DNA of 64,000 bases from Aphrocallistes beatrix (taxonomy: Eukaryota; Porifera; Hexactinellida; Sceptrulophora; Aphrocallistidae), in contig OY725489.1 in assembly GCA_963281255.1 (NCBI GenBank), positions 2,976,001-3,040,000 of the forward strand, given 5' to 3'. Both the position numbers and the translations under genes were made by a program. The stretch's first letter is position 1. Every line of letters begins with the position of its first letter. This document shows, piece after piece, positions 3,901-63,545 of the stretch. The notes beneath the pieces are model-generated. The model had not been told where the DNA came from, did not search any database, and saw only the letters and a list, made by a program, of their open reading frames with translations.

Positions 3901-5215
3901 CGAGGGCTGTCCAAAAAGTTCGCTAACTAATTAGGCTAATTCAACAAATATATGATATATTAGTAAACATCCTCGTCAAAATTTTCAATATACTGTCCCT
4001 TGAGCTTTATACATTTTTGCCATCTTTCTGGAAGCTTTTCAATTCCTTTTGCAAAGAATTCTGGAGGGACACTATCTACCCAGTGATCAACAGCTGAACT
4101 GAGATTTTTAAAATTATCGAATCTCTTTCCACGAAGCGCCTTTTTCAATTCTGAAAAAAGCCAGTAATCACTCGGGGCCAGGTCTGGACTATAAGCAGGG
4201 TGAGGCATGAGCTCGAAGCCTAAGGAAGCAATGGCATCCGTTGTCTTATGGCTTGTATGGGGTCTAGCGTTGTCATGTTGTAACAGAACTCGACTGCTTA
4301 ACTTCCCTCGTCGTTTACTTTTAATAGCTACACGCAGATCATTGAGTACATCGATGTAATACTCACTATTAATAGTCATTTTCTCGGGGAGCCAGTTTAT
4401 TAGAATGATTCCTTCACTGTCCCAGAAAAAGGTAGCCATTCTTTTCCCAGCGGATTTTGTGGTCCGGGCCTTGATAGGCACAGGCTCGTACCTCCTCTTC
4501 CATTGACTACTTTGTACCTTTGACTCTGGTTCATGGTGATAAACCCAAGTTTCATCCCCGGTCACGATACGACTTAGATAATTGCGTTCACCTTGCCAGC
4601 TCCTGATTAAATCTCGACAAACCACCACTCGTCGCCGCTTTTGCTCATCAGTCAAGAGTTTGGGGACCCATCTAGCGGAAACTCGCGACATTCCGAGAGT
4701 TTGACTGACAACATTATGAATGGTCGATTTTGATATCCCCAGAGTTTCTTCTAGTTGCCGCAAAGTTGATCTTCGATCTTCGTCTAAAGCAGACTCAATT
4801 CGTGTCGTATTTAATTCAGTGGATACGGTGGTCGGACGGCCACTACGTGGAGCATCCTCAGGTGTATCCCAACCATCATTAAAGCGATCGATCCATTTGT
4901 AGATCATGACGCTGGAAGGGCAATTATCACCATAGACATCCAACATCTCCCTATGAATTGTAGCACCTTTTTTCCCCTGCTTCCACAGGAACCAAATGAC
5001 ATTTCGCTTTCCAATATCAGAAAATTCCATTAGAGTGAATATGTATCCAACTTCAATCAGAAAAAAATTACTAAGTATACAATTTACGATGGTCGATAAT
5101 AGCAATAAAATGATGTACATCGATGGATATATTGATTTAAAAGGCTAACAATTGTCTAGGAAAATGGGTGTATTAAATACAGTAAAAAGTTAGCGAACTT
5201 TTTGGACAGCCCTCG
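3901..5215. mobile_element. complete mariner transposon
   Basis: The 1315-bp element has perfect 28-bp terminal inverted repeats beginning CGAGGGCTGTCCAAAAAGTT, and TA dinucleotides directly outside both ends (3899-3900 and 5216-5217). It holds one uninterrupted transposase gene on the minus strand. Perfect ends, an intact gene and a clean TA duplication make it the best preserved element in the window, and probably one of the youngest insertions. Confidence 0.95.
3960..5030 (-). CDS. mariner transposase, 356 aa, apparently intact
   Basis: This cut-and-paste transposase is expected to bind the 28-bp element ends and insert at TA. The frame is open from an upstream ATG at 5120, but the family start is the methionine of MEFSDIGKR at 5030. 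That gives 356 residues, normal for mariner; the extra upstream residues are hydrophobic and have no counterpart in the family. Two N-terminal helix-turn-helix regions include IHREMLDVYG and LRQLEETLGISKSTIHN. WVPKLL follows, close to the usual WVPH-type linker. The catalytic triad is Asp in TGDETWVYHHE, Asp in QHDNARPHTS, and Asp at the end of YSPDLAPSD, with 34 residues between the last two, the D34D spacing of true mariners. No stop or frameshift is seen. Activity is an inference. Confidence 0.95.
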   Translation of the reverse strand: MEFSDIGKRNVIWFLWKQGKKGATIHREMLDVYGDNCPSSVMIYKWIDRFNDGWDTPEDAPRSGRPTTVSTELNTTRIESALDEDRRSTLRQLEETLGISKSTIHNVVSQTLGMSRVSARWVPKLLTDEQKRRRVVVCRDLIRSWQGERNYLSRIVTGDETWVYHHEPESKVQSSQWKRRYEPVPIKARTTKSAGKRMATFFWDSEGIILINWLPEKMTINSEYYIDVLNDLRVAIKSKRRGKLSSRVLLQHDNARPHTSHKTTDAIASLGFELMPHPAYSPDLAPSDYWLFSELKKALRGKRFDNFKNLSSAVDHWVDSVPPEFFAKGIEKLPERWQKCIKLKGQYIENFDEDVY

Positions 5216-16712: not shown

Positions 16713-18318
16713 ACACGAACACACGAATATTTCTTAACTTATCAGTAGGGTAATTTGACTTAATTAGACAAACATATTCAGTTTTGTATATTTACTAGTG
16801 TTAAAAATCTTCGTAATAGAGCAGTTTCTGGACAAAACTTTCGACGTCATAAGATTAGCTTTTGACTTGACCTAACTCGAATTAGATAGTCATTTTCAGA
16901 TAATCTCAGTTAACAACATTTTGATTCAAATACTCAGAAAAAAATGAAATTGATTTATTAATGGCATAAAAGCTTTTTATGATTATATCCCAACAGATTT
17001 TATAGTTCCTATATAAGATAGCAAAACTACAATTGTCATATCAATCTAATCAGAGTGCAAAAACTACCAATCCTATAAAATATCTCATGGGATACCATGG
17101 CTCCCCTAGCCCCCCCTCACACCTCCTCTGCCATATAGTAGAGCCTTCTCTGCCATATATTTATATTGACAAGAAATACCCGCACCGCGGAGACCAAATG
17201 CCGATTAGTTTCGTGCTTCTTTACTATTATATTAGAAATACATGTTCAAATATAATAGTATTGGAAGCACTCTAAAATATGCATATTTCCTTGGAGATTT
17301 GTTCATTCTAATTTATTTCTACTGTATAGATATTTTCAAACTGTTTTTCTCAGATGATATAATTCTAAATATTCTTACGATGACGAATTCTAAACTAAGA
17401 GATTTCTTGGAATCACATCCGAATTTTTCCGAGAAACCTTATTTTCATCCAATTACCTTGATGGAATTATATGCATTCTTTGGCCTGATGATAGAAATCG
17501 GTGTATTCCGGTTACATAAGGAAACTCTTGATAACATCTTTTCAGATGACAATAATAAATCAAATCCACTCTTTAAAGCCACCATGGCTAGGGATCGTTT
17601 TAAGAATATATTACGATTTTTACGTTTCGATGAAATGGCTACTAGACAGACAAGGAAGGAAACCGATTCATTAGCGCTTATTCGAGAAGTTTTAGATAGA
17701 GTCAGAGCTAATCTCATGGCTGCTTATTCCCCTGGCTGTTGGCTGACCATCGATGAACATTTATGTAGGTACAGGGGGCGATGCCATTTTCGTCAATATA
17801 TACCTTCCAAACCAGATCGATATGGCATAAAGATTTATGTGTTAGCCGACTCTAGAAACTTCTACCCTGTAAATTTCGAGGTATATTGCGGGAAGCAAGC
17901 TTTATCCAATGCTCCAAAAGATTTAGTCCTTAGGTTAACTTCGGTTTTAGATGCAGGACATATTATTTGTGGAGACAATTTTTTCACTTCATTGGCCCTT
18001 TCAAATTCTTTATCCCAAAAGTCCGTTTATTATTTAGGCACTATCAGGAAAATACGTAGAGAAATTCCTAAAACGGTGAAGGATATTAAGGGATTACCAC
18101 CGTATTCATCACGCTTTATGTATTGTGAAGATTCACAAGCATCTCTTCTCTCTTACATTACAAAAAAGAATAAGAGCGTGGTGTTGCTATCAAATATCCA
18201 TTCATGTAAAATAATTCCTACTAATTCTAAGAACTCAAAGCCAACTATTATTTTAGAGTACAATCATAATAAATCCGGAGTGGATAAACTCGGGCAAATG
18301 TTGAAAGAATATAGGAGT

Positions 18319-19104
18319 GGGTGCGGACAGTTATTGTCCGCAGGAGGCGCCCTTTGGATTCCCGGTGTATTATTAACTGACAAGCGCGCTTCGCTTCGCT
18401 TGCTTGCGCTACGCGGCTTGAGACACTGTGTGGCCGCCTGGAGTTTCTCAATCTAACATATTTGGGATTTTTTACTTTATATAATATTGTAAACCATGTC
18501 AACCGTTGGAAGTCAGCCTCTAAGCTATTTTTGTAATGTGTTTACTTTAACTATCTAATGTAAACAAAAGTAAACAAATTATTTATATTATTAAACTGAA
18601 AATATAACATTCTAAATCTACACCACTAAAAATCCCATGTCAACCGTTGAAAGCAAGTTTCTAACATATTTATGAGATTTGTTTCCTTTTGCATCTATTG
18701 TCAACAAATGTATACAAATAATTTATCATATAGACCTGAAAATATGATATTCGAAATCTACACCCTAAAAACCCCATGTCACCCGTTGGAAGCTAGTCTC
18801 TAGCATTTTTTCAAAATTCGTCAAATTGTTTGAAAATACGCACATAATCTTGTTTATTGCTATACATTATGATACATTTAATTAATATGATATCAAACTT
18901 AAGTTGTGGCTTTGAAGTATTGATAACAATGACAATCTATTGTAGTGCCGTACAATGATTTCCATTGTGATAGTGTAGTCATCTATTTTGTATAGAAAAG
19001 GTGTGAAAAATTGTTTTCCATTTTTTTGTAGAAGTGTGAAAATTTCGCTTAGATCTTAGAACTTAATCGTAGTAAAGACAAATACACAAAAAAATCCTAC
19101 CGTT
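18319..19104 (-). repeat. family A tail joined to family B, copy 4
   Basis: 18319-18380 resembles the GC-rich end of family A (GCGGACAGTTATTGTCCGC, then GGAGGCGCCCTTTGG). From 18381 on, the sequence is family B in reverse orientation, from the AAGCGCGCTTCGCTT tail through about three ~145-bp units (CCATGTCAACCGTTGGAAG) to ATTTCGCTTAGATCTTAGAA. It ends the piggyBac-2 open frame. Confidence 0.75.
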
Positions 19105-31920: not shown

Positions 31921-32939
31921 CATGGCCTACTTAATATATGGCTATACTATATGTCACCGAGAAGGCCACAAAACGAAGAGGCCAGTTTTAACAAAGTCAA
32001 ATTTCAATTAGAATGATAAATCAAAAACCGCTTCCGATAAACATTTGAAATGTATTATTACCATATACAAACATTATATCAGAGTGTCCAATTCCGCTGT
32101 CAAAAATATGATATGTCATCATGTGATTGCGCAATAGACTCTTTTTAGAGCGGAAATGTTGCTGTTCAACATCGTTATCTACATTTCTAATGCTTGATTT
32201 TTTGAAAGAGCAACAATAGGTAGACCTCAAGCCAAAAAGTCTGAAAATTTTAGTTGGAATGTCTATGCATTCCTCAGTTGCTATGGAAACAAAAAATTAC
32301 ATGTTTAAGCCATAACTCGAAAAGTATACTATTCACATGTCTATTTTCAATATGTTCTGAGTTATCTAGGATTTTGTCGCATCTTATTACTTCTCTACTG
32401 ATCACGATAAAATCCTAGATAACTCACAACTTATTGAAAATAGACATGTGAATAGTATTATTCTCATATAGGAAGTAATAGTTTACGGATTAAATAGTAT
32501 AATTCTTTAGTGTCTACGATCTATACTTTTCGATTTATTGGCTTAAACGTGTAATTTTTTGTTTCCATAGCAACTGAGGAATGTCTAGACATTCCAGCTA
32601 AAATTTTCAGATTTTTTGGCTTGAGGTCTACCTATTGTTACTCTATCAAAAAATCAAACATTAGAAATGCAAATAATGATGTTTAATATGAGCTGGAACA
32701 GCAACATTTTCCGCTCTAAAAAGAGCCTATTGCGAAATCACATGATGACATATCAAATTTTTGACAGCGGAATTGGATACTCTGATATAATGTTTGTATA
32801 TGGTAATAAGACATTTCAAATGTCTATCGGAAGCGGTTTTTGATTTATCATTCTAATTGAAATTTGACTTTGTTAAAACTGGCCTCTTCGTTTGTGGCCT
32901 TCTCGGTGACATATATAGCCGTATATTAAGTAGGCCATG
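31921..32939. mobile_element. 1-kb palindromic element, 7-bp target duplication
   Basis: Ends CATGGCCTACTTAATATA and complement; arms of about 480 bp pair imperfectly around a centre near 32400. Perfect CTTGCGC at 31914-31920 and 32940-32946. It splits the THAP finger of the P-like gene. The same family appears at 44032-44751 (CATAGCCTAC, duplication AGTCAAT), sharing inner motifs GTTTCCATAGCAAC and TAATCAAATTTTT-like runs. No coding sequence. Confidence 0.93.
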
Positions 32940-33895: not shown

Positions 33896-35244
33896 CAGGG
33901 TGTCCCATAAGTATTGGCCGGTCTTCAGATTTTTAAGTTATCAAAATTGTATTGCAAAACCATTGTGAAATAAGACGAGTTACTTTCAATTATTGAAGTA
34001 AATAACTTGCGAGTAATTTCTATCACTTAGTTTACAATCTAGTAATAATACAAAGCTATAATATTAATAGGCCTATCTAGCTTGAACAAATCAATAATGA
34101 ATGTCCAAGATTATGGAATCGCGATTCGTTCTAAGGCAATTGGACTTCTAGAGGGCGGTTCAACGCAGAAAATTGTTTCACAGAGGTTATCTGCTAGTGA
34201 AAGATCACTAAGGCGTTGGTGGCATGCACACAAAGCCGGAAGTCGCCTCGAAAGTAGACCCAAACAAGGTCGTCCAAAAACGATTAGCCGAGTTGCTAAA
34301 ATTGTAATTTCGAAATCTGTGGGGAAAAGGAGACAATCAACGCGAAGAATTGCTACTAGACTATCCAATAGCGGAATAACCATCTCAAAATCAACAGTAC
34401 ACCGTTATCTAAAGGGTACTCTTGGCCTAAAATCTTACAAAAGACCCAAAAAGCCCCGATTAACGGAAAAAATGAAAGAAAATCGACTAAAATTCGCCCG
34501 TAAAACAGAAAAGTCGACAATCGAACAATGGAAAAAGGTCCTGTGGAGCGACGAATCCTCCTTTGAACTATTTTCTCTTCCAAATCGTCAGAACGACAGA
34601 GTTTGGTCAAAATCTTCAAGAAACATTGAGCCATGTCTCCGTATTAAATTTCCACCGTAAATTCAAGTGTGGGGGATGATTTCGTTTCAAGCAGTGTCGG
34701 AATTGCATTTAATACCGAAAGGGCAGATGGTTAATGGAGCTTATTATAGGGACTCGATATTAGCCAAAACTTGTTTGGATGCGATTAAACGTAAACGGAA
34801 GAGAGGCTCAATTTTGGAACGGTCAATGCTACCAAACATGTCCGAGTTATTTTTCATGCAGGATGGTGCACCAGCTCACACCGCCAATTCGACCCAAGAA
34901 TGGTGTTCAAAGAAGTTCCCAAACTTCTGGCGTAAAGCGGAATGGCCAGGTAACTCGCCTGACCTTATAATCCAATTGAAAACGTGTGGGCATATATGAA
35001 AGAGAAGATCAGCGAAATGGGAGATGCAAATACTCTAAAGGGCATGGAAAAAAAATCTTATAGAAGCATGGAGATCAATCCCTCCAGATTTTTTAGCAAA
35101 TTTAATTTGTAACATGCCGAATCGTGTTAAACTAGTTATAGAAAAGGATGGAGATTACATTGGAAAATAAAATTGACTTATATTATTTGCTTAAAAAAAA
35201 TTATAGCAACTTATACTACTGGCCAATACTTATGGGACACCCTG
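33896..35244. mobile_element. Tc1-like transposon, nearly complete
   Basis: 1349 bp. Termini CAGGGTGTCCCATAAGTATT (25-bp inverted repeats reaching TTGGCC), with TA outside both ends (33894-33895 and 35245-35246). One transposase gene on the plus strand with two lesions. The ends resemble those of the truncated relative whose right end is at 40409 (CAGGGTGTTTCATAAGTCGT). Confidence 0.93.
34097..35170 (+). pseudogene. Tc1-like transposase, one stop and one frameshift
   Basis: Starts MNVQDYGIAIRSKAIGLLEG, matching the start of the sister copy (MNVSDYGLAMRSKAIG). The paired HTH region includes SERSLRRWWHAH and ISKSTVHRYLKG. Catalytic residues: Asp in LWSDESSFELF, Asp in FFMQDGAPAHTA, and Glu in NPIENVWAYM. 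An in-frame TAA at about 34658-34660 interrupts KFPP and IQVWGM. Near 34966-34970 a frame change separates GNSPDL from NPIEN. After it the frame is open to IEKDGDYIGK and a normal stop, about 350 residues in total, usual for Tc1. The start at 34097 is chosen from the sister copy. Confidence 0.92.
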
Positions 35245-35249
35245 TATAT

Positions 35250-35745
35250 ACAAGCCCGCTTCGGTTGCTTCCGTTGCGCGGCTGGCGGAAAATTATATCC
35301 GCCAGAGGTGCCTGGGTTACATTAGTTAATTATAAGGCAGATAACATCTCTAAATACGTATGTCTTACTGTTATAATCGATATCACTTAAGATCATAAAA
35401 TTTGTCAATTTTAAAATTTTTGATACGTAATGATGACGTCATAACATAGTAATGAGTCATTATTTTTCGATGATAGTTGTATCATATCTGAGATTTATTA
35501 ATATACACATTCTATTAAAATTTCAGCCTTCTATCATCTAAAATGTCTGAGTTATAGTCAAAAAACTGAAATTTCTAATTATAAAAGTGACAATGGCGTT
35601 TATAATACCGTGATGAGTCGACATTTTCGTCCGAGGTCAGAATTTAGCGGAGCCATAACCAAAAGACTCTTACACACCAAAATTCAGCTTTCTGTGCCTG
35701 GCAGTTTCTTCAATCAATTCGTATATACATATATATACGTACATG
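35250..35745 (+). repeat. family A, copy 2
   Basis: Starts ACAAGCCCGCTTCGGTTGCT next to the Tc1 element, has the same TGATGACGTCATAACATAG and GAGTCGACATTTTCGTCC landmarks, and ends around CAATCAATTCGTATATACAT. It is placed tail-to-tail with copy 3. Confidence 0.88.
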
Positions 35746-35849
35746 TAACGAATTGATTAATGAAGCTGTTAGGACCAGAAAGCTGATTTTTGGCATGTGG
35801 GAATCTTTTGGCTATGGCTCCGCTAAATTCTGACCTGTATATTAATTAA

Positions 35850-36536
35850 TTAATGCTATTTTCACCCATATGCTGTTTCCACCTAAACCATGGATATTCT
35901 ATCTCTATGCTACTTCCACCCAAGTGATGATTAGTAGATTATCGTTTTTATGGTTTCGATCATTGTTGTTGATGATGATTACTATGGTATTATTTATATA
36001 CAGTTATGCATATAATACCTTTGTGCAAGTTGTAATGTTTATTTATTTTTTCATTTATTATCTTGACCCGGTACTTATTCGGAGCAATACGGTATACGTA
36101 TATATTCGAATATTAATACAAATGTAGGTTATAAATTTCTAAATACAGTAAACTTCAGTTATAAGTTCCTCTAATTCCCCTAATACAAAAAAAATAATTC
36201 AGCAATAGCATCCCTAATGAAGGTAACTTAGTGGCTTATATTCTACTACACCGTAGATGGTCCGCCTGGGCTACTCAAGGTACCAACGAATAGTACGCCT
36301 CTTAATTTACTTAAGATGCATGCGGTATGTTCTGTATTACTTTTATGCATGTTTTTCTCATGAGTTTTAAACTATGTGATTATTGTTAGAAATGTATGAA
36401 TAGTAAATAAAATAAATATCATTGTAATAATCATCAACAACAATGATCGAAACCATAAAAATGATAATCTACTAATCAACACTTGGGTGAAAGTAGCATA
36501 GAGATAGAATATCCATGGTTTGGGTGAAAATAGCAT
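35850..36536. mobile_element. foldback element in family A copy 3
   Basis: About 130-bp arms: left ATGCTATTTTCACCC ... CCATGGATATTCTATCTCTA, right its complement ending GGGTGAAAATAGCAT. The host sequence reads GACCT on either side (35837-35841 and about 36543-36547), a likely 4-5-bp duplication. The spacer has no gene. Confidence 0.8.
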
Positions 36537-36646
36537 GAAACAGACCTCAAACGAAAATGTCGGCCATCATGGAATTATAACGTCATTATCACCTTTTTTA
36601 TAATTAGAAATTTCAGTTTTTTGACTTTAACTCAGACATTTTAGGT

Positions 36647-36994
36647 GGTAAACGGAAATTTCGTCCCCGGAATTTTTGATCCAGAAATTTCGTCTCCGAA
36701 CTTTTGTCTCATTAGAGCCTAAAATAAACAGGCACTAATATGTAAGGAACTGAAAGTGAGGCTTTTGGAGTGGAGTATGTTTAAAAAAATGGTGAAAATG
36801 AGGCATTTTGATTGAGAAATCAGTAAGTGCGAAAGGGACATTTCAGGGGACGAAAATTCCAGGGACGAAAGTTCCGCCATTCCTGCGAGACTAGTTTGGT
36901 TTCACTAAATATCCAGGAATTTAGTTTATCTAACTTATGGAATATTTATGTACAAAAGGGGACCAAATTTCCGGGGACGAAATTTCGGGGATTC
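36647..36994. mobile_element. MULE-like MITE, 9-bp target duplication
   Basis: 348 bp flanked by ATTTTAGGT (36638-36646 and 36995-37003). The 24-bp ends pair after the first few bases (GGAAATTTCGTCCCCGG). The interior repeats GGGGACGAAATT and GGGACGAAAGTTCC motifs. Other family A copies carry CATTTTAGATGATAGAAGG-like sequence without the insert. Confidence 0.85.
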
Positions 36995-37289
36995 ATTTTA
37001 GGTAATAGAAGGCTGAAATTTTAATAGAATGTGTATATTAATAAATCTCACATATGATACAACTATCATCGAAAAATGATGACTCACCACTCTGTTATGA
37101 CGCCATTATTATTCAGCAGAAATTGAAAAATGAGATTTTTCGAGTGATATCAATTATAACAGTAAAGCAGACCGATGTAGAGATGTTACCCACCATATAA
37201 TTAATCCATGTGAGCCTAGGCGCCGACAGGGCGCCTCCGACAGACACAAAGTGTCCGTTAGCTTCGCACCCCAAGCAAACGAAGTGCGC

Positions 37290-37625
37290 CTGTTTATATG
37301 AAGTCTGATTGAGAGGACAACATAAACATGACTGGTTGTTATATGTATTATTATATCTAGTATTGTTCTGTGTGGCAGTGATGATCATTAGAACGTTCAT
37401 TTCTCCTGGTCAATCGATCATCACTGCTATTTGTTTGTTTATGTTTGTAACGGCAATTGTATTTTGTCGTCCAGTGTTGATACTACACTGCTGATGAAGC
37501 CAGAAAGCAGAAACGACAGATATTTAAAAACTTAGGAGATACAAACTACAAAATTAGTAATACCCCGGTTTGCCTCCACAATTATCATGCATTCGCCATC
37601 AAGGCATCTTACAAATTCCTTATGA
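37290..37625 (+). repeat. hammerhead-bearing dispersed repeat, copy 1
   Basis: About 330 bp that is the reverse complement, with differences, of 63235-63545. It runs from TCTGATTGAGAGGACAACAT to the CTACAAAATTAGTAATACCC region and includes the hammerhead-like motif at 37466-37517. No coding sequence is present. Penelope-like retroelements and retrozymes are known to carry hammerheads in such repeats; which of these this is cannot be seen. Confidence 0.7.
37466..37517 (+). ncRNA. hammerhead ribozyme-like motif, copy 1
   Basis: GTCGT (37466-37470) pairs with ACGAC (37513-37517) as stem III. The GTC cleavage triplet ends at 37471. CAGTG (37472-37476) pairs with CACTG (37486-37490) as stem I. 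The core CTGATGA is at 37491-37497 and GAAA at 37510-37513. Stem II is weak (GC with GC around CCAGAAA or shorter), and the first stem II pair is A-A instead of the usual G-C. Order and core agree with a hammerhead; activity is untested. Confidence 0.6.
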
Positions 37626-38800: not shown

Positions 38801-38825
38801 TCCATAGTCAAATAAAATTTCCACT

Positions 38826-39460
38826 TTGGGGTCTAAAACGACCCCAGAGTCAGAGGTGATCTCCACTTTGGGGTCCAAAAAGACCCCAGAGTCAGAGGTG
38901 ATCTTTACTCTGGGATCTAAAAAGACCCCAGAGTCAGAGGTGATCTTTACTCTGGGGTCTAAAAAGACCCCAGAGTCAGAGGTGATCTTTACTCTGGGGT
39001 CTAAAAAGACCCCAGAGTCAGAGGTGATCTTTACTCTGGGGTCTAAAAAGACCCCAGAGTCAGAGGTCATCTCCACTTTGTGGTCTAAAAAGACCCCAGA
39101 GTCAGAGGTGATCTCCACTTTGGGGTCCAAAAAGACCCCAGAGTCAGAGGTGATCTCCACTTTGGGGTCCAAAAAGACCCCAGAGTCAGAGGTGATCTTT
39201 ACTCTGGGGTCTAAAAAGACCCCAGAGTCAGAGGTGATCTCCACTTTGAGGTCCAAAAAGACCCCAGAGTCAGAGGTGATCTCCACTTTGGGGTCTAAAA
39301 AGACCCCAGAGTCAGAGGTGATCTCCAGTTTGGGATCTAAAAAGACCCCAGAGTCAGAGGTGATCTCCACTTTGTGGTCCAAAAAGACCCCATAGTCAGA
39401 GGTGATCTTTACTCTGGGGTCTAAAAAGACCCCAGAGTTAGAGGTGATCTTGAAGTGATA
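38826..39460. repeat. 42-bp tandem array, ~15 units
   Basis: Unit GGGGTCTAAAAAGACCCC + AGAGTCAGAGGTGATC + TCCACTTT (or TTTACTCT). The first 18 bases form a hairpin. Because 42 is a multiple of three and the unit lacks stops in several frames, long open frames appear on both strands (14-residue repeats, for example KKTPESEVISTLGS on plus and VEITSDSGVFLDPK on minus). They have no start context, no flanking coding sequence and near-identical codons by repeat origin, so I treat them as non-coding. Units are very similar, pointing to recent expansion. The array cuts off the end of a Tc1-like gene. Confidence 0.93.
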
Positions 39461-39507
39461 TTCCGCAAATATTTCTGTGGGGTCTTATTTTTTCAGAGAG
39501 TCATCGT

Positions 39508-40409
39508 AGGGTTAAAACGAATTGCATCAACACAGGTTCTCTTTAAAATATGATCCCGATAGTAAGCACCATTTACAGTTTGCTTTTGAGGGACTATGTG
39601 CAGTTCCGAAACAGCAGAATGGGACATCATACCCCATACCATGACCTTCGCTGGAAATTTCACTTTGAAGACAGGCTCTAATCTTTCGCTGGTTTTGTCC
39701 CAAACGCGGTCATTTTGTGGATTCGGGGATGCAAACAACTCAAAGGGGGACTCATCCGACCACAAAACCTTTTTCCAATCATCAACAGTCCAATGCTGAT
39801 GGGCTAGGGCGAAAGAAAGTCGTTTTTCTTTGATCCTGTCGGTAATCCGTGGCCTTTTTGGACGTTTGTACGACCTCACACCGATATGGTCCTTCAAATG
39901 CCTATAAACAGTAGTTGGAGAAATAGTGTAGCCTTTTCCTCGCAGTTTCTTCGCGATTTTCCTCGTTGACTGGAGTCGTTTGCCGAGAGATCTAGCAATA
40001 ACAATTTTGCTCACACGGTCTAAAATCGGCGGACGTCCAGACCGCCCCTTGGTTTCCAGTGAAACTCCCGAATTATTGGATTGTGACCATCTTCGAACCG
40101 AACGATATCCAACATTAAGCCTCTTGGCTACCTCTTTTTTAGGTACTCCTGATTCTATCATCCCGATTGCCTTAGAACGCATGGCTAACCCGTAGTCAGA
40201 TACATTCATTTTGAAAAAATGAACAAAAAGTACAAATTATCAACAAAAAAAAGTAACAGGAAATAATATAAACGAAATAATGGTTGAAAATAGAGTGATT
40301 GTAATACCGCAGTAAAGCAGCAGAATAGGAAATAGTAATGCTCATGGTCCATTAGAAAAACAACTATTGATATAAAAAAGTTTTGGGCCACGACTTATGA
40401 AACACCCTG
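39508..40409 (-). pseudogene. Tc1-like transposase, 3'-truncated, with one TIR end
   Basis: The gene starts at 40209 with MNVSDYGLAMRSKAIGMI and is open for about 234 codons: HTH parts VGYRSVRRWSQS and ISPTTVYRHLKD, RPKRPRITDRIKEKRL, first catalytic Asp in LWSDESPFELF, and VWGMMSHSAVSELH. Soon after YYRDHILKRTCVDAI the frame meets the 42-bp array, so the second Asp and Glu are missing. The 5' end of the element, CAGGGTGTTTCATAAGTCGT on the minus strand, lies at 40409 with TA beyond. No stop or frameshift is seen before the truncation. Confidence 0.92.
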
Positions 40410-46254: not shown

Positions 46255-47160
46255 ACGTCTCAGGTCAAGTCTGTCTCTCACGCGAAGCCAAGTCAATCTC
46301 AAGCTAAGTCAAGTATATCCTCAAGCTAAGTCAAGTATATCCTCAAGCTAAGTCAAGTCTGTCTCTCAAGCTAAGTCAAGTCTATCCTCAAGCTAAGTCA
46401 AGTCTGTCTCTCAAGCTAAGTCAAGTCTATCCTCAAGCTAAGTCAAGTCTGTCTCTCAAGCTAAGTCAAGTCTGTCTCAAGCTAAGTCAAGTCTGTCTCT
46501 CAAGCTAAGTCAAGTCTGTCTCAAGCTAAGTCAAGTCTGTCTCTCAAGCTCAGTCAAGTCTGTCCCTCAAGCTAAGTCAAGTCTATCCTCAAGCTAAGTC
46601 AAGTCTGTCTCTCAAGCTAAGTCAAGTCTGTCTCTCAAGTTCAGTCAAGTCTGTCTCTCAAGCTAAGTCAAGTCTATCCTCAAGCTAAGTCAAGTCTGTC
46701 TCTCAAGCTAAGTCAAGTCTATCCTCAAGCTAAGTCAAGTCTGTCTCTCAAGCTAAGTCAAGTCTATCCTCAAGCTAAGTCAAGTCTGTCTCTCAAGCTA
46801 AGTCAAGTCTATCCTCAAGCTAAGTCAAGTCTGTCTCTCAAGCTCAGCCAAGTCTGTCTCTCAAGCTCAGTCAAGTCTGTCTCTCAAGCTAAGTCAAGTC
46901 TATCCTCAAGCTAAGTCAAGTCTGTCTCTCAAGCTCAGCCAAGTCTGTCTCTCAAGCTAAGTCAAGTCTGTCTCTCAAGCTCAGTCAAGTCTGTCTCTCA
47001 AGCTAAGTCAAGTCTATCCTCAAGCTAAGTCAAGTCTGTCTCTCAAGCTAAGTCAAGTCTGTCTCTCAAGCTAAGTCAAGTCTATCCTCAAGCTAAGTCA
47101 AGTCTGTCTCTCAAGCTCAGCCAAATCTGTCTCTCAAGCTCAGCCAAGCCATTGTCTGCC
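46255..47160. repeat. 22-23-bp minisatellite, ~40 units
   Basis: Units CAAGCTAAGTCAAGTCTGTC + TCT and CAAGCTAAGTCAAGTCTATC + CT alternate over long parts, giving a 45-bp higher-order period; CAAGCTCAG variants are interspersed. High similarity indicates recent expansion. Lies inside the TTAA element, just left of the shared block. Confidence 0.93.
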
Positions 47161-56600: not shown

Positions 56601-56949
56601 ATGAAATCCGGGGCCGCAGAATCATACTCGGGGCAAATGCCCCGGATGCCCCCCCCTGGGACCGCCCCTGGGACTCCCTCCTCCATATGCGGTAATTGCA
56701 AGATCACTCTCACCTTTAATACAAATGCTCAGCTGGCCAGTTGGAAAAAGCAATTGGCCAAGAGAAGAATAGAACACTACTCACAGGTGTAATATTTGGA
56801 AGATAAAATGGGAAAAATTCCCAACGTAGATGAGCATTTATGTTAGCTATTTTGGACAATATGGAATAAGAATTCGTAATTCTTTAATTAATTAATTAAT
56901 TAACGCCCCGTTGCACACGTGGGGTATTTTTGTACCCCAGGGAAATTTT

Positions 56950-57412
56950 GGGGTCAGATTCTACCCCACCTGGGCAAGAGCGCAGGTTGACCAGTGGGGT
57001 CAGATTCTACCCCACCTGGGCAAGAGCGCAGGTTGACTAGTGGGGTCAGATTCTACCCCACCTGGGCAAGAACACAGGTTGACCAGTGGGGTCAGATTCT
57101 ACCCCACCTGGGCAAGAGCGCAGGTTGACCAGTGGGGTTAGATTCTACCCCACCTGGGCAAGAACTCAGGTTGACCAGTGGGGTCAGATTCTACCCCACC
57201 TGGGCAAGAGCGCAGGTTGACCAGTGGGGTCAGATTCTACCCCACCTGGGCAAAAGCGCAGGTTGACCAGTGGGGTCAGATTCTACCCCACCTGGGCAAG
57301 AACGCAGGTTGACCAGTGGGGTCAGATTCTACCCAACCTGAGCAAGTACATAGGTTGATCAGTGGGGTCAGATTCTACCCCACTGGTCAACCTTCGTACT
57401 CAAATGTTTGGG
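56950..57412. repeat. 46-bp tandem array, ~10 units, with inverted closing half-unit
   Basis: Unit GGGGTCAGATTCTACCCC + ACCTGGGCAAGAGCGCAGG + TTGACCAGT; the first 18 bases form a hairpin like that in the 42-bp array. Units are nearly identical. The last unit is followed by ACTGGTCAACC, the inverted form of the unit's end, so the array closes as a palindrome. Confidence 0.93.
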
Positions 57413-63234: not shown

Positions 63235-63545
63235 ACAGCACAAATATGTGCAGAGGATGTCTGGATGGCATGTATGATCAAGCCGGAGACTTACTGGGGT
63301 ATTAATTTTGTAGTTTGTAGATCATATATTTATTTAAATATGTCGTTTCTGCCTTCTGGCTTCATCAGCAGTGCAGTACCAACACTGGACGACATAAGAC
63401 AACAGCCGTCACAAACATATCAAACAAACAAAAACAAACAAACAAGCAAACAAACAAATAGTGATCATCACTGCAACACAAAAATATTATAAATGATCAT
63501 ATATAACAGCCAGCCATGTAAATGTTATCCTCTCAATCAGACATA
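63235..63545 (-). repeat. hammerhead-bearing dispersed repeat, copy 2
   Basis: Reverse complement of 37290-37625 with differences. Contains an expanded AAACAAACAAACAAGC tract near 63425-63455 and the hammerhead-like motif at 63340-63395. The sequence continues past the motif in both copies, so it is not simply a terminal fragment. Confidence 0.7.
63340..63395 (-). ncRNA. hammerhead ribozyme-like motif, copy 2
   Basis: On the minus strand ATGTCGT (63395-63389) pairs with ACGACAT (63346-63340) as a 7-bp stem III. The GTC site follows; CAGTG pairs with CACTG as stem I around TTGGTACTG. Then the core CTGATGA, stem II GCC-AGAA-GGC, and GAAAC. Compared with copy 1, stem II is better (3 bp) and stem III longer. 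As in copy 1 the first stem II position is A-A. Confidence 0.65.

Follow-up and report, generated by a model that had tools for sequence, protein, structure and literature searches.

A hammerhead RNA family with A·A at the first stem II position in a dispersed repeat and in viral contigs: a probable natural variant

Within a 64,000-nucleotide stretch of genomic DNA (the window), two copies of a dispersed repeat hold short sequences that resemble the hammerhead ribozyme, and in both of them A stands opposite A where the first pair of stem II is expected. The question raised by this locus is whether such sequences are working ribozymes and what sort of element carries them. An earlier note, made from the letters alone, had proposed two self-cleaving motifs in a shared repeat of about 330 bp, and both motifs were found where it placed them (Table 1). 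At each site the stem III 5' strand is followed by C17 after GU, stem I, CTGATGA and A10.1, and onward by stem II, A11.1, GAA and the stem III 3' strand, which is the type III order. Stem I has 6 bp at both sites, with one G-U in copy 2, and all seven stem III pairs that the note gave for copy 2 were counted. Stem II reads GCC-AGAA-GGC in copy 2 and GCC-AGAA-AGC, with one mismatch, in copy 1. The repeat common to the two sites covers 306 bases at 75% identity, or 259 at 78% with another BLAST setting, and its proposed length was about right. Both window sites are type III hammerheads with an intact core and a GUC cleavage site, and both repeats look like carriers of genuine self-cutting hammerhead RNA, with cleavage predicted from the sequence.

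Table 1. Positions of the hammerhead parts and of the upstream module in the window (R1, covariance model described in the text)
Feature	Position	Strand	Remark
Copy 1 hammerhead, type III	37465..37518	+	fold, core and R1
Copy 1 stem III	37465-37470/37513-37518	+	
Copy 1 C17	37471	+	predicted cleavage 37471^37472
Copy 1 stem I	37472-37477/37485-37490	+	
Copy 1 CTGATGA	37491-37497	+	
Copy 1 A10.1; A11.1	37498; 37509	+	
Copy 1 stem II	37499-37501/37506-37508	+	
Copy 1 GAA	37510-37512	+	
Copy 1 D1, long hairpin	37374..37428	+	5' strand 37374-37386, 3' strand 37416-37428
Copy 1 strand a (ACGGCA)	37450..37455	+	can pair with stem III 5' strand
Copy 2 hammerhead, type III	63340..63395	-	fold, core and R1
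Copy 2 stem III, 7 bp	63389-63395/63340-63346	-	
Copy 2 C17	63388	-	
Copy 2 stem I	63382-63387/63369-63374	-	
Copy 2 CTGATGA	63362-63368	-	
Copy 2 A10.1; A11.1	63361; 63350	-	
Copy 2 strand a (ACGGCT)	63404..63409	-	
Copy 2 upstream part	63410..63484	-	D1 5' strand kept, 3' strand replaced by TTTG-type repeat

A partner of copy 1 at C14:1482305, 99% identical, lies inside a duplication of at least 3.4 kb; it was therefore not taken as a separate insertion, and copy 1 was counted once. Nested inverted repeats with arms of 138, 130, 89 and 74 nt, foldback-like in appearance, occupy 35314-37216 just upstream of copy 1. It was also noted that 38820-39450 consists of 15 copies of a 42-bp tandem unit with a repeated ORF through both strands, that further tandem arrays with units of 23 bp and 46 bp lie at 46264-47148 and 56949-57390, and that Pfam identifies DNA transposase ORFs (Mos1/mariner, DDE_Tnp_1_7 and Tc3 type) at 3960-5144, 17236-18456, 34049-34660 and 39493-40236.

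From the 100.5-Mb genome, 16 distinct copies were collected by DNA searches and by a pattern allowing up to 3 mismatches; since the search counts are lower bounds, the family has at least 16 members. The pattern gave 27 matches compared to 5 when read backwards, of which 18 were read, 15 as loci and 3 separately; two of the 15 loci (L092 and L093) were judged by eye not to be hammerheads. Nine copies are of the window type (subfamily 1: both window sites, L007, L045, L046, L047, L048, L056 and L065), and seven form subfamily 2 (L090, L091, L094, L096, L097, L098 and, from a later search, L099). Four damaged copies were kept in all counts: L047, without G12, and L065, with a stem III mismatch, among the nine founders, and L094 and L096, both cut off in stem III, among the seven later ones.

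Scoring by a covariance model, which the earlier note had proposed as a check, succeeded only with a model of our own. The Rfam gathering search of the 64-kb window returned 0 matches, E-value searches of 8 loci and of 9 loci including subfamily 2 returned no hammerhead (in total 14 of the 16 copies, all except L047 and L065), and RF00163 gave none above its cut-off across the genome. In contrast, R1, a model built on the nine window-type copies, retrieved all seven held-out subfamily 2 copies among 40 loci (111 kb) at 54.9-30.8 bits (E 1.4e-12 to 7.5e-6), with its next matches at E 1.4 and 6. Both window copies score about 90 bits but helped to build the model, so the independent tests are the held-out copies and the viral contigs. 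From the same 40 loci R1 retrieved no hammerhead of L009-L038, which belong to other families in the genome. A third R1 hit at 32353 (16 bits, E 0.058) was dropped, as it is without CTGATGA.

The alignment of the 16 copies revealed a nearly invariant core. Across its 12 columns (U16.1, C17, C3-A9 without N7, G12, A13, A14 and A15.1), 1 of 192 cells deviates (G12 in L047), compared to 121 of 687 in the other hammerhead columns, and equal conservation was seen in 0 of 20,001 random sets of 12 columns drawn from the region. The GUC cleavage triplet, which is of the RUH form, is present in every aligned copy. Stems I, II and III, with stem III open, are paired in 92.0% of cells, and controls slid along the alignment drop to 23.6-61.6%. 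Double changes occur in 8 of the 16 stem pairs and the covariation score of the stems was equalled by 0 of 500 shuffles, in tests that relatedness inflates; 12 of 500 shuffles reach that many double changes, and standard pair types are not in excess (375 of 500 shuffles have as many). The nine window-type copies alone are 93.1% paired, with double changes in 3 pairs (74 of 500 shuffles). The earlier note had held that the core is kept while the copies diverge, and had named a core as variable as the rest as the contrary outcome; the former was found, with stems varying in pairs around the conserved bases. Loop 1 is also well conserved (7 of 110 cells deviate), which is compatible with a loop 1-loop 2 contact but is no proof of it.

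The A-A first pair, which the note had called unusual, recurs in most of the family, and both this remark and the ribozyme reading hold more strongly than the note put them. Positions 10.1/11.1 hold A·A in 11 of the 16 copies, C·A in 4 and G·A in 1; 11.1 is A throughout, and the Watson-Crick pair expected there in a type III hammerhead is absent from all 16. The next pair, 10.2-11.2, is G-C in 14 copies and G-U in 2. In the excerpted text of PMC3088659 (Perreault et al. 2011), 10.1-11.1 is called the most conserved pair after A15.1-U16.1, with U·U as both the best tolerated mismatch and a surprising natural exception. Because a natural U·U mismatch is known from that excerpt, the missing pair marks a variant and does not exclude a hammerhead, and because the pair is so conserved and U·U is the mismatch best tolerated, a hammerhead with A·A may cleave slowly. 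Among the open-licence PubMed Central papers listed, none was found to report A·A at 10.1-11.1. Under the overall reading that we consider probable, the hammerhead is a natural variant with A10.1·A11.1 (or C·A, G·A) in place of G10.1-C11.1, followed by G-C or G-U at 10.2-11.2, and it seems that a well-studied ribozyme has an overlooked natural form.

The same form was encountered in viral contigs. One exact pattern matched the IMG/VR contig L100, where R1 gave 49.6 bits; two of the five proteins of this contig, the only one with genes checked, match PHROGs (single-strand binding protein and integrase). A pattern for A·A with a 4-nt loop (CTGATGAA-SS-N6-SS-AGAAAC) was found in 35 viral contigs, 24 of which have a complementary 3-bp stem II. 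All of these 24, which include near-duplicates (e.g., L226, L237 and L251) and are not all independent, also have stems I and III, arranged as type III in 10 and as type I in 14, and all have G-C at 10.2-11.2. By comparison, stems I and III were present in 0 of the 11 contigs without a complementary stem II, and 34 of 1750 passed in a shuffled-flank control. R1 retrieved 10 of 10 viral type III copies at 38.5-51.1 bits, while Rfam, run on 6 of these 10 contigs, gave two sub-threshold matches, one overlapping the L100 copy and one elsewhere in L244. Second, weaker R1 matches were observed in L223, L244 and L254 (32.1, 29.1 and 19.4 bits), and some of these viruses may hold several hammerheads.

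A 5-nt-loop pattern gave at least 122 matches in at least 120 contigs. Among the matches listed, 36 have a closed stem II, of which 15 pass as type I and 21 fail; a recurrent stretch, GGTGAAGTACC (stem II and loop), is present in 19 of these failures and also in 2 of the passes (L118 and L131), so some of the 5-nt passes are probably due to chance. Without a closed stem II, 3 of 86 pass among the matches listed, shuffled flanks pass in 178 of 6100 cases, and an earlier test of 80 of the 120 contigs for type III only gave 0. The 5-nt form is weaker evidence than the 4-nt form. A further search kept stem II as GCC/GGC and allowed any bases at 10.1/11.1. It matched 110 viral contigs, and the loci examined carried GC (90), AA (18), CA (4) or AC (3) there, all other combinations being absent. 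Stems of type III were present in 51 of the GC, 10 of the AA, 1 of the CA and 0 of the AC matches. Type I stems were tested for the A and C combinations only: the other 8 AA matches are type I, which makes 18 of 18 complete hammerheads, the four CA matches comprise one type III, two type I and one that is neither, and the three AC matches are all type I. Two viral contigs (L324 and L326) provide type I hammerheads with A10.1·C11.1, another non-canonical pair.

Bacterial genomes gave four matches to an exact pattern. One is a type III copy in an Aliivibrio MAG, two are type I copies in Francisella records, and the fourth, in a Wildermuthbacteria MAG, fails both stem tests and by eye resembles type III with a single mismatch in stem III. 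L046 has the 24-mer CTGATGAAGCCAAAAGGCAGAAAC in common, without any change, with all 10 viral type III copies; judged from this stretch, shared descent and convergence would be indistinguishable. Among phage records, one viral copy found no counterpart and a window copy matched 11, all of them weakly and in part, and no named phage was tied to the class.

In the genome, the hammerhead closes a module that spans about 145 nt (37374-37518 in copy 1), in which it is preceded by a hairpin, D1, and a spacer with a short strand a, and after which an A/T-rich stretch follows. D1, a 13-bp stem with an inner 4-bp hairpin, is paired in 83.1% of cells across the 16 copies, with double changes in 10 of 17 pairs. 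Most subfamily 2 copies and copy 1 have D1 well formed, with the inner GGAC/GTCC hairpin degenerate in copy 1, but it is broken in copy 2 and mostly lost in L099; the upstream part of copy 2 matches many genome places. The idea that the hammerhead had been inserted into an older repeat was considered on account of L005 (C1:4739693), which has both flanks without a hammerhead, and was dropped, as L005 retains the 5' half of D1 and by eye is read as a deletion derivative.

Strand a (ACGGYA) can pair with the stem III 5' strand, forming what we term the a-b helix. This helix is paired in 94.6% of cells (a percentage reached by 11 of 500 shuffles), and its covariation score is reached by 4 of 500, with double changes in only 1 of 6 pairs (U-A 8, C-G 7, U-G 1). 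RNAalifold, left free, selects a-b over stem III. Nearest-neighbour energies separate the two folds by no more than 3 kcal/mol in 11 of the 16 copies and put a-b lower in 8 of 16, and base-pair probabilities place a-b ahead in 12 copies, stem III in 3 and neither in 1, so the ribozyme may mostly be switched off. In 15 of 16 copies the predicted 5' product folds so that its 3' end lies 0-3 bases beyond a hairpin. These results support strand a and stem III as two exclusive pairings. In the mechanism that we propose, the RNA would be made, stem III would form and the RNA would cut between C17 and the first base of stem I; strand a, we infer, would then capture the freed 5' strand of stem III, and the upstream product would have a terminal hairpin by which re-ligation is discouraged. 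An attenuator that delays cleavage is equally compatible with the two pairings. With product capture, the eukaryotic element adds a possible built-in way to make self-cleavage irreversible.

A proline-rich ORF points to the element that carries the module. A fragment of this ORF from L091 matched seven genome places. In six of them a copy follows on the same strand after about 330-400 bases (L091, L090, L097, L099, L048 and L096), which amounts to 6 of the 16 copies, five of the seven in subfamily 2 plus L048 of subfamily 1. At the seventh place (C18:1852746), no hammerhead was seen in the 351 bases downstream, and the ORF match is absent for the window copies, L094 and L098. Pfam returned nothing at E 1 or better for pieces of the ORFs in L048 and L090. 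A stretch of about 1.4-1.6 kb is common to L090 and L091, and CTCAAAA was noted by eye as a possible short inverted end. Because in these six copies the module follows a small proline-rich ORF by a few hundred bases, it is most likely the 3' region of a low-copy mobile element; the window copies would then be old relatives, dispersed and lacking the ORF.

Other hammerhead families were encountered in the same genome. A genome search with RF00008, in which 68 of 13,935 candidates were scored, gave at least 54 matches at E up to 10 and at least 12 above the cut-off, none of them in the window. Type III hammerheads occur in solo-LTR-like units at 6 of the 16 loci examined (L012, L013, L015, L018, L020 and L024). 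These units are 180-256 bp long, start with TGTA, end with CA and have 5-bp target duplications; the duplication sequence is the same in L018 and L024, which may go back to a single event, and the scan for LTR-like ends also lists chance-like coincidences at other loci. A further type III family comprises L026, L027, L029, L030 and L035-L038. In L029, L030, L037 and L038 the hammerhead lies 35-100 nt after an ORF, which in L029, the only one run, has a Pfam OTU (protease) domain (1.2e-9); L029 and L030 are 99.8% identical and count as one case. The piece upstream in L037, which we take to resemble an integrase tail, gave no Pfam match. L095 is rDNA, partly masked, with a 5.8S that appears neither typically animal nor typically fungal and a 5.8S/18S that looks opisthokont. 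The host may be a unicellular relative of animals; a search for Wnt gave no match, but control genomes gave none either, so this does not show absence. If the host is not a plant, the solo-LTR-like and OTU-linked families would carry LTR retrozymes beyond plants.

The earlier note had pointed to Penelope-like elements and retrozymes as known homes of hammerheads, and both fit poorly, with neither a Penelope nor a tandem-retrozyme home favoured by our data. A tandem or LTR retrozyme, in which two hammerheads per element free a unit-length RNA circle that is reverse-transcribed and reinserted, appears unlikely. Small non-coding repeats with hammerheads are typical of retrozymes in the excerpts of PMC7229834 and PMC4918200, and the solo-LTR-like units show that hammerheads in such a setting exist in this genome. 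However, the animal retrozymes described in the excerpt of PMC7229834 are type I, and one hammerhead per 3-5 kb, with no tandem or LTR pair, was found at 13 of 13 places with a match (14 loci, two of which fall at the same place, and one of which is the C14 duplicate). Moreover, L090 and L091 are without an internal repeat, the repeats in L048 and L056 are short (at most 79 nt) and do not flank the hammerhead as LTRs would, and TG...CA ends with a duplication were not recognised by eye around L046/L047. A Penelope-like element, of the kind that encodes a reverse transcriptase with a GIY-YIG endonuclease, or a derivative of one, is highly improbable. Hammerheads do occur in Penelope-like and Terminon elements, but the excerpt of PMC7229834 describes these as minimal type I forms, whereas the window family has an open stem III of about 5-7 bp. 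The note had also reported no visible reverse transcriptase in the repeat, and none was recognised by eye among ORFs of at least 80 aa in ten copy loci with about 1.5 kb on each side, nor by Pfam in the 10 of 28 long window ORFs given to it.

Decay is a different kind of alternative, namely that the fold is kept only as part of the repeat and is no longer catalytic owing to A·A, and we regard it as quite unlikely. It would agree with the position of A·A at the most conserved pair, with the broken copies and with the preference for a-b over stem III in 12 of 16 copies. It does not agree with a core that stays near-invariant while the stems change in pairs, with A at 11.1 in all 16 copies, or with the finding of this A·A form in viral contigs whose stems differ, where it is a complete hammerhead in all 24 that have a closed stem II. 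Taken as a whole, the best explanation is probably that of an RNA module with an A·A-variant hammerhead, which would form the 3' region of a mobile element and act with product capture. The fold, its conservation and covariation, the two alternative helices and the ORF linkage are observed, and cleavage, product capture, element type and mobility are proposed from them. We lean, with less assurance, towards the broader proposal that hammerheads with A·A form a natural class of their own, able to cleave, in which the conserved G-C of stem II sits one position further out, at 10.2-11.2, beyond A·A or C·A. Members of this class, of both type I and type III, would be present in DNA viruses (phages, to judge by a single contig), bacterial genomes and a eukaryotic mobile element; existing models would have missed them, and the product-capturing strand would make cleavage in the element one-way. 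The 10.1-11.1 pair of this model ribozyme is treated as near-fixed, and a natural A·A class, if true, would change the consensus used for genome searches and offer a clean structural test of the coupling between stem II and the active site.

Several known systems resemble the family in part. The hammerhead of the barley yellow dwarf virus satellite was reportedly shown by Miller and Silver in 1991 to be attenuated by an alternative fold, and there, too, an alternative pairing rivals the active fold; the competing fold is said to lie within the hammerhead, whereas the window family uses an upstream strand against stem III. The type III hammerheads of plant retrozymes, viroids and satellites (RF00008) have the same order of parts and an open stem III, although the rDNA of this genome does not look plant-like. 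The family differs from RF00008-type hammerheads in having A·A, C·A or G·A for G10.1-C11.1 and three real stem II pairs, and Rfam misses it. A 6-bp stem I with a 6-8 nt loop and a 4-nt loop 2 are common to both (typical values from the excerpt of PMC7936874). As portrayed in the excerpt of PMC7229834, animal non-LTR retrozymes are likewise short non-coding repeats with a hammerhead, but are type I and tandem, while the window family is type III and single; Penelope elements carry type I hammerheads as well. Plant LTR retrozymes, by the excerpt of PMC4918200, share the type III hammerhead in mobile repeats and are close to the solo-LTR-like family of the same genome; they have two LTRs, each with a hammerhead, whereas no LTR pair or target duplication was recognised for the window family. 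The U10.1-U11.1 hammerhead in the excerpt of Perreault et al. 2011 (PMC3088659) is alike in its natural mismatch at the first stem II pair, but that case is U-U, whereas the window family and the viral contigs have A·A or C·A, and across a whole family.
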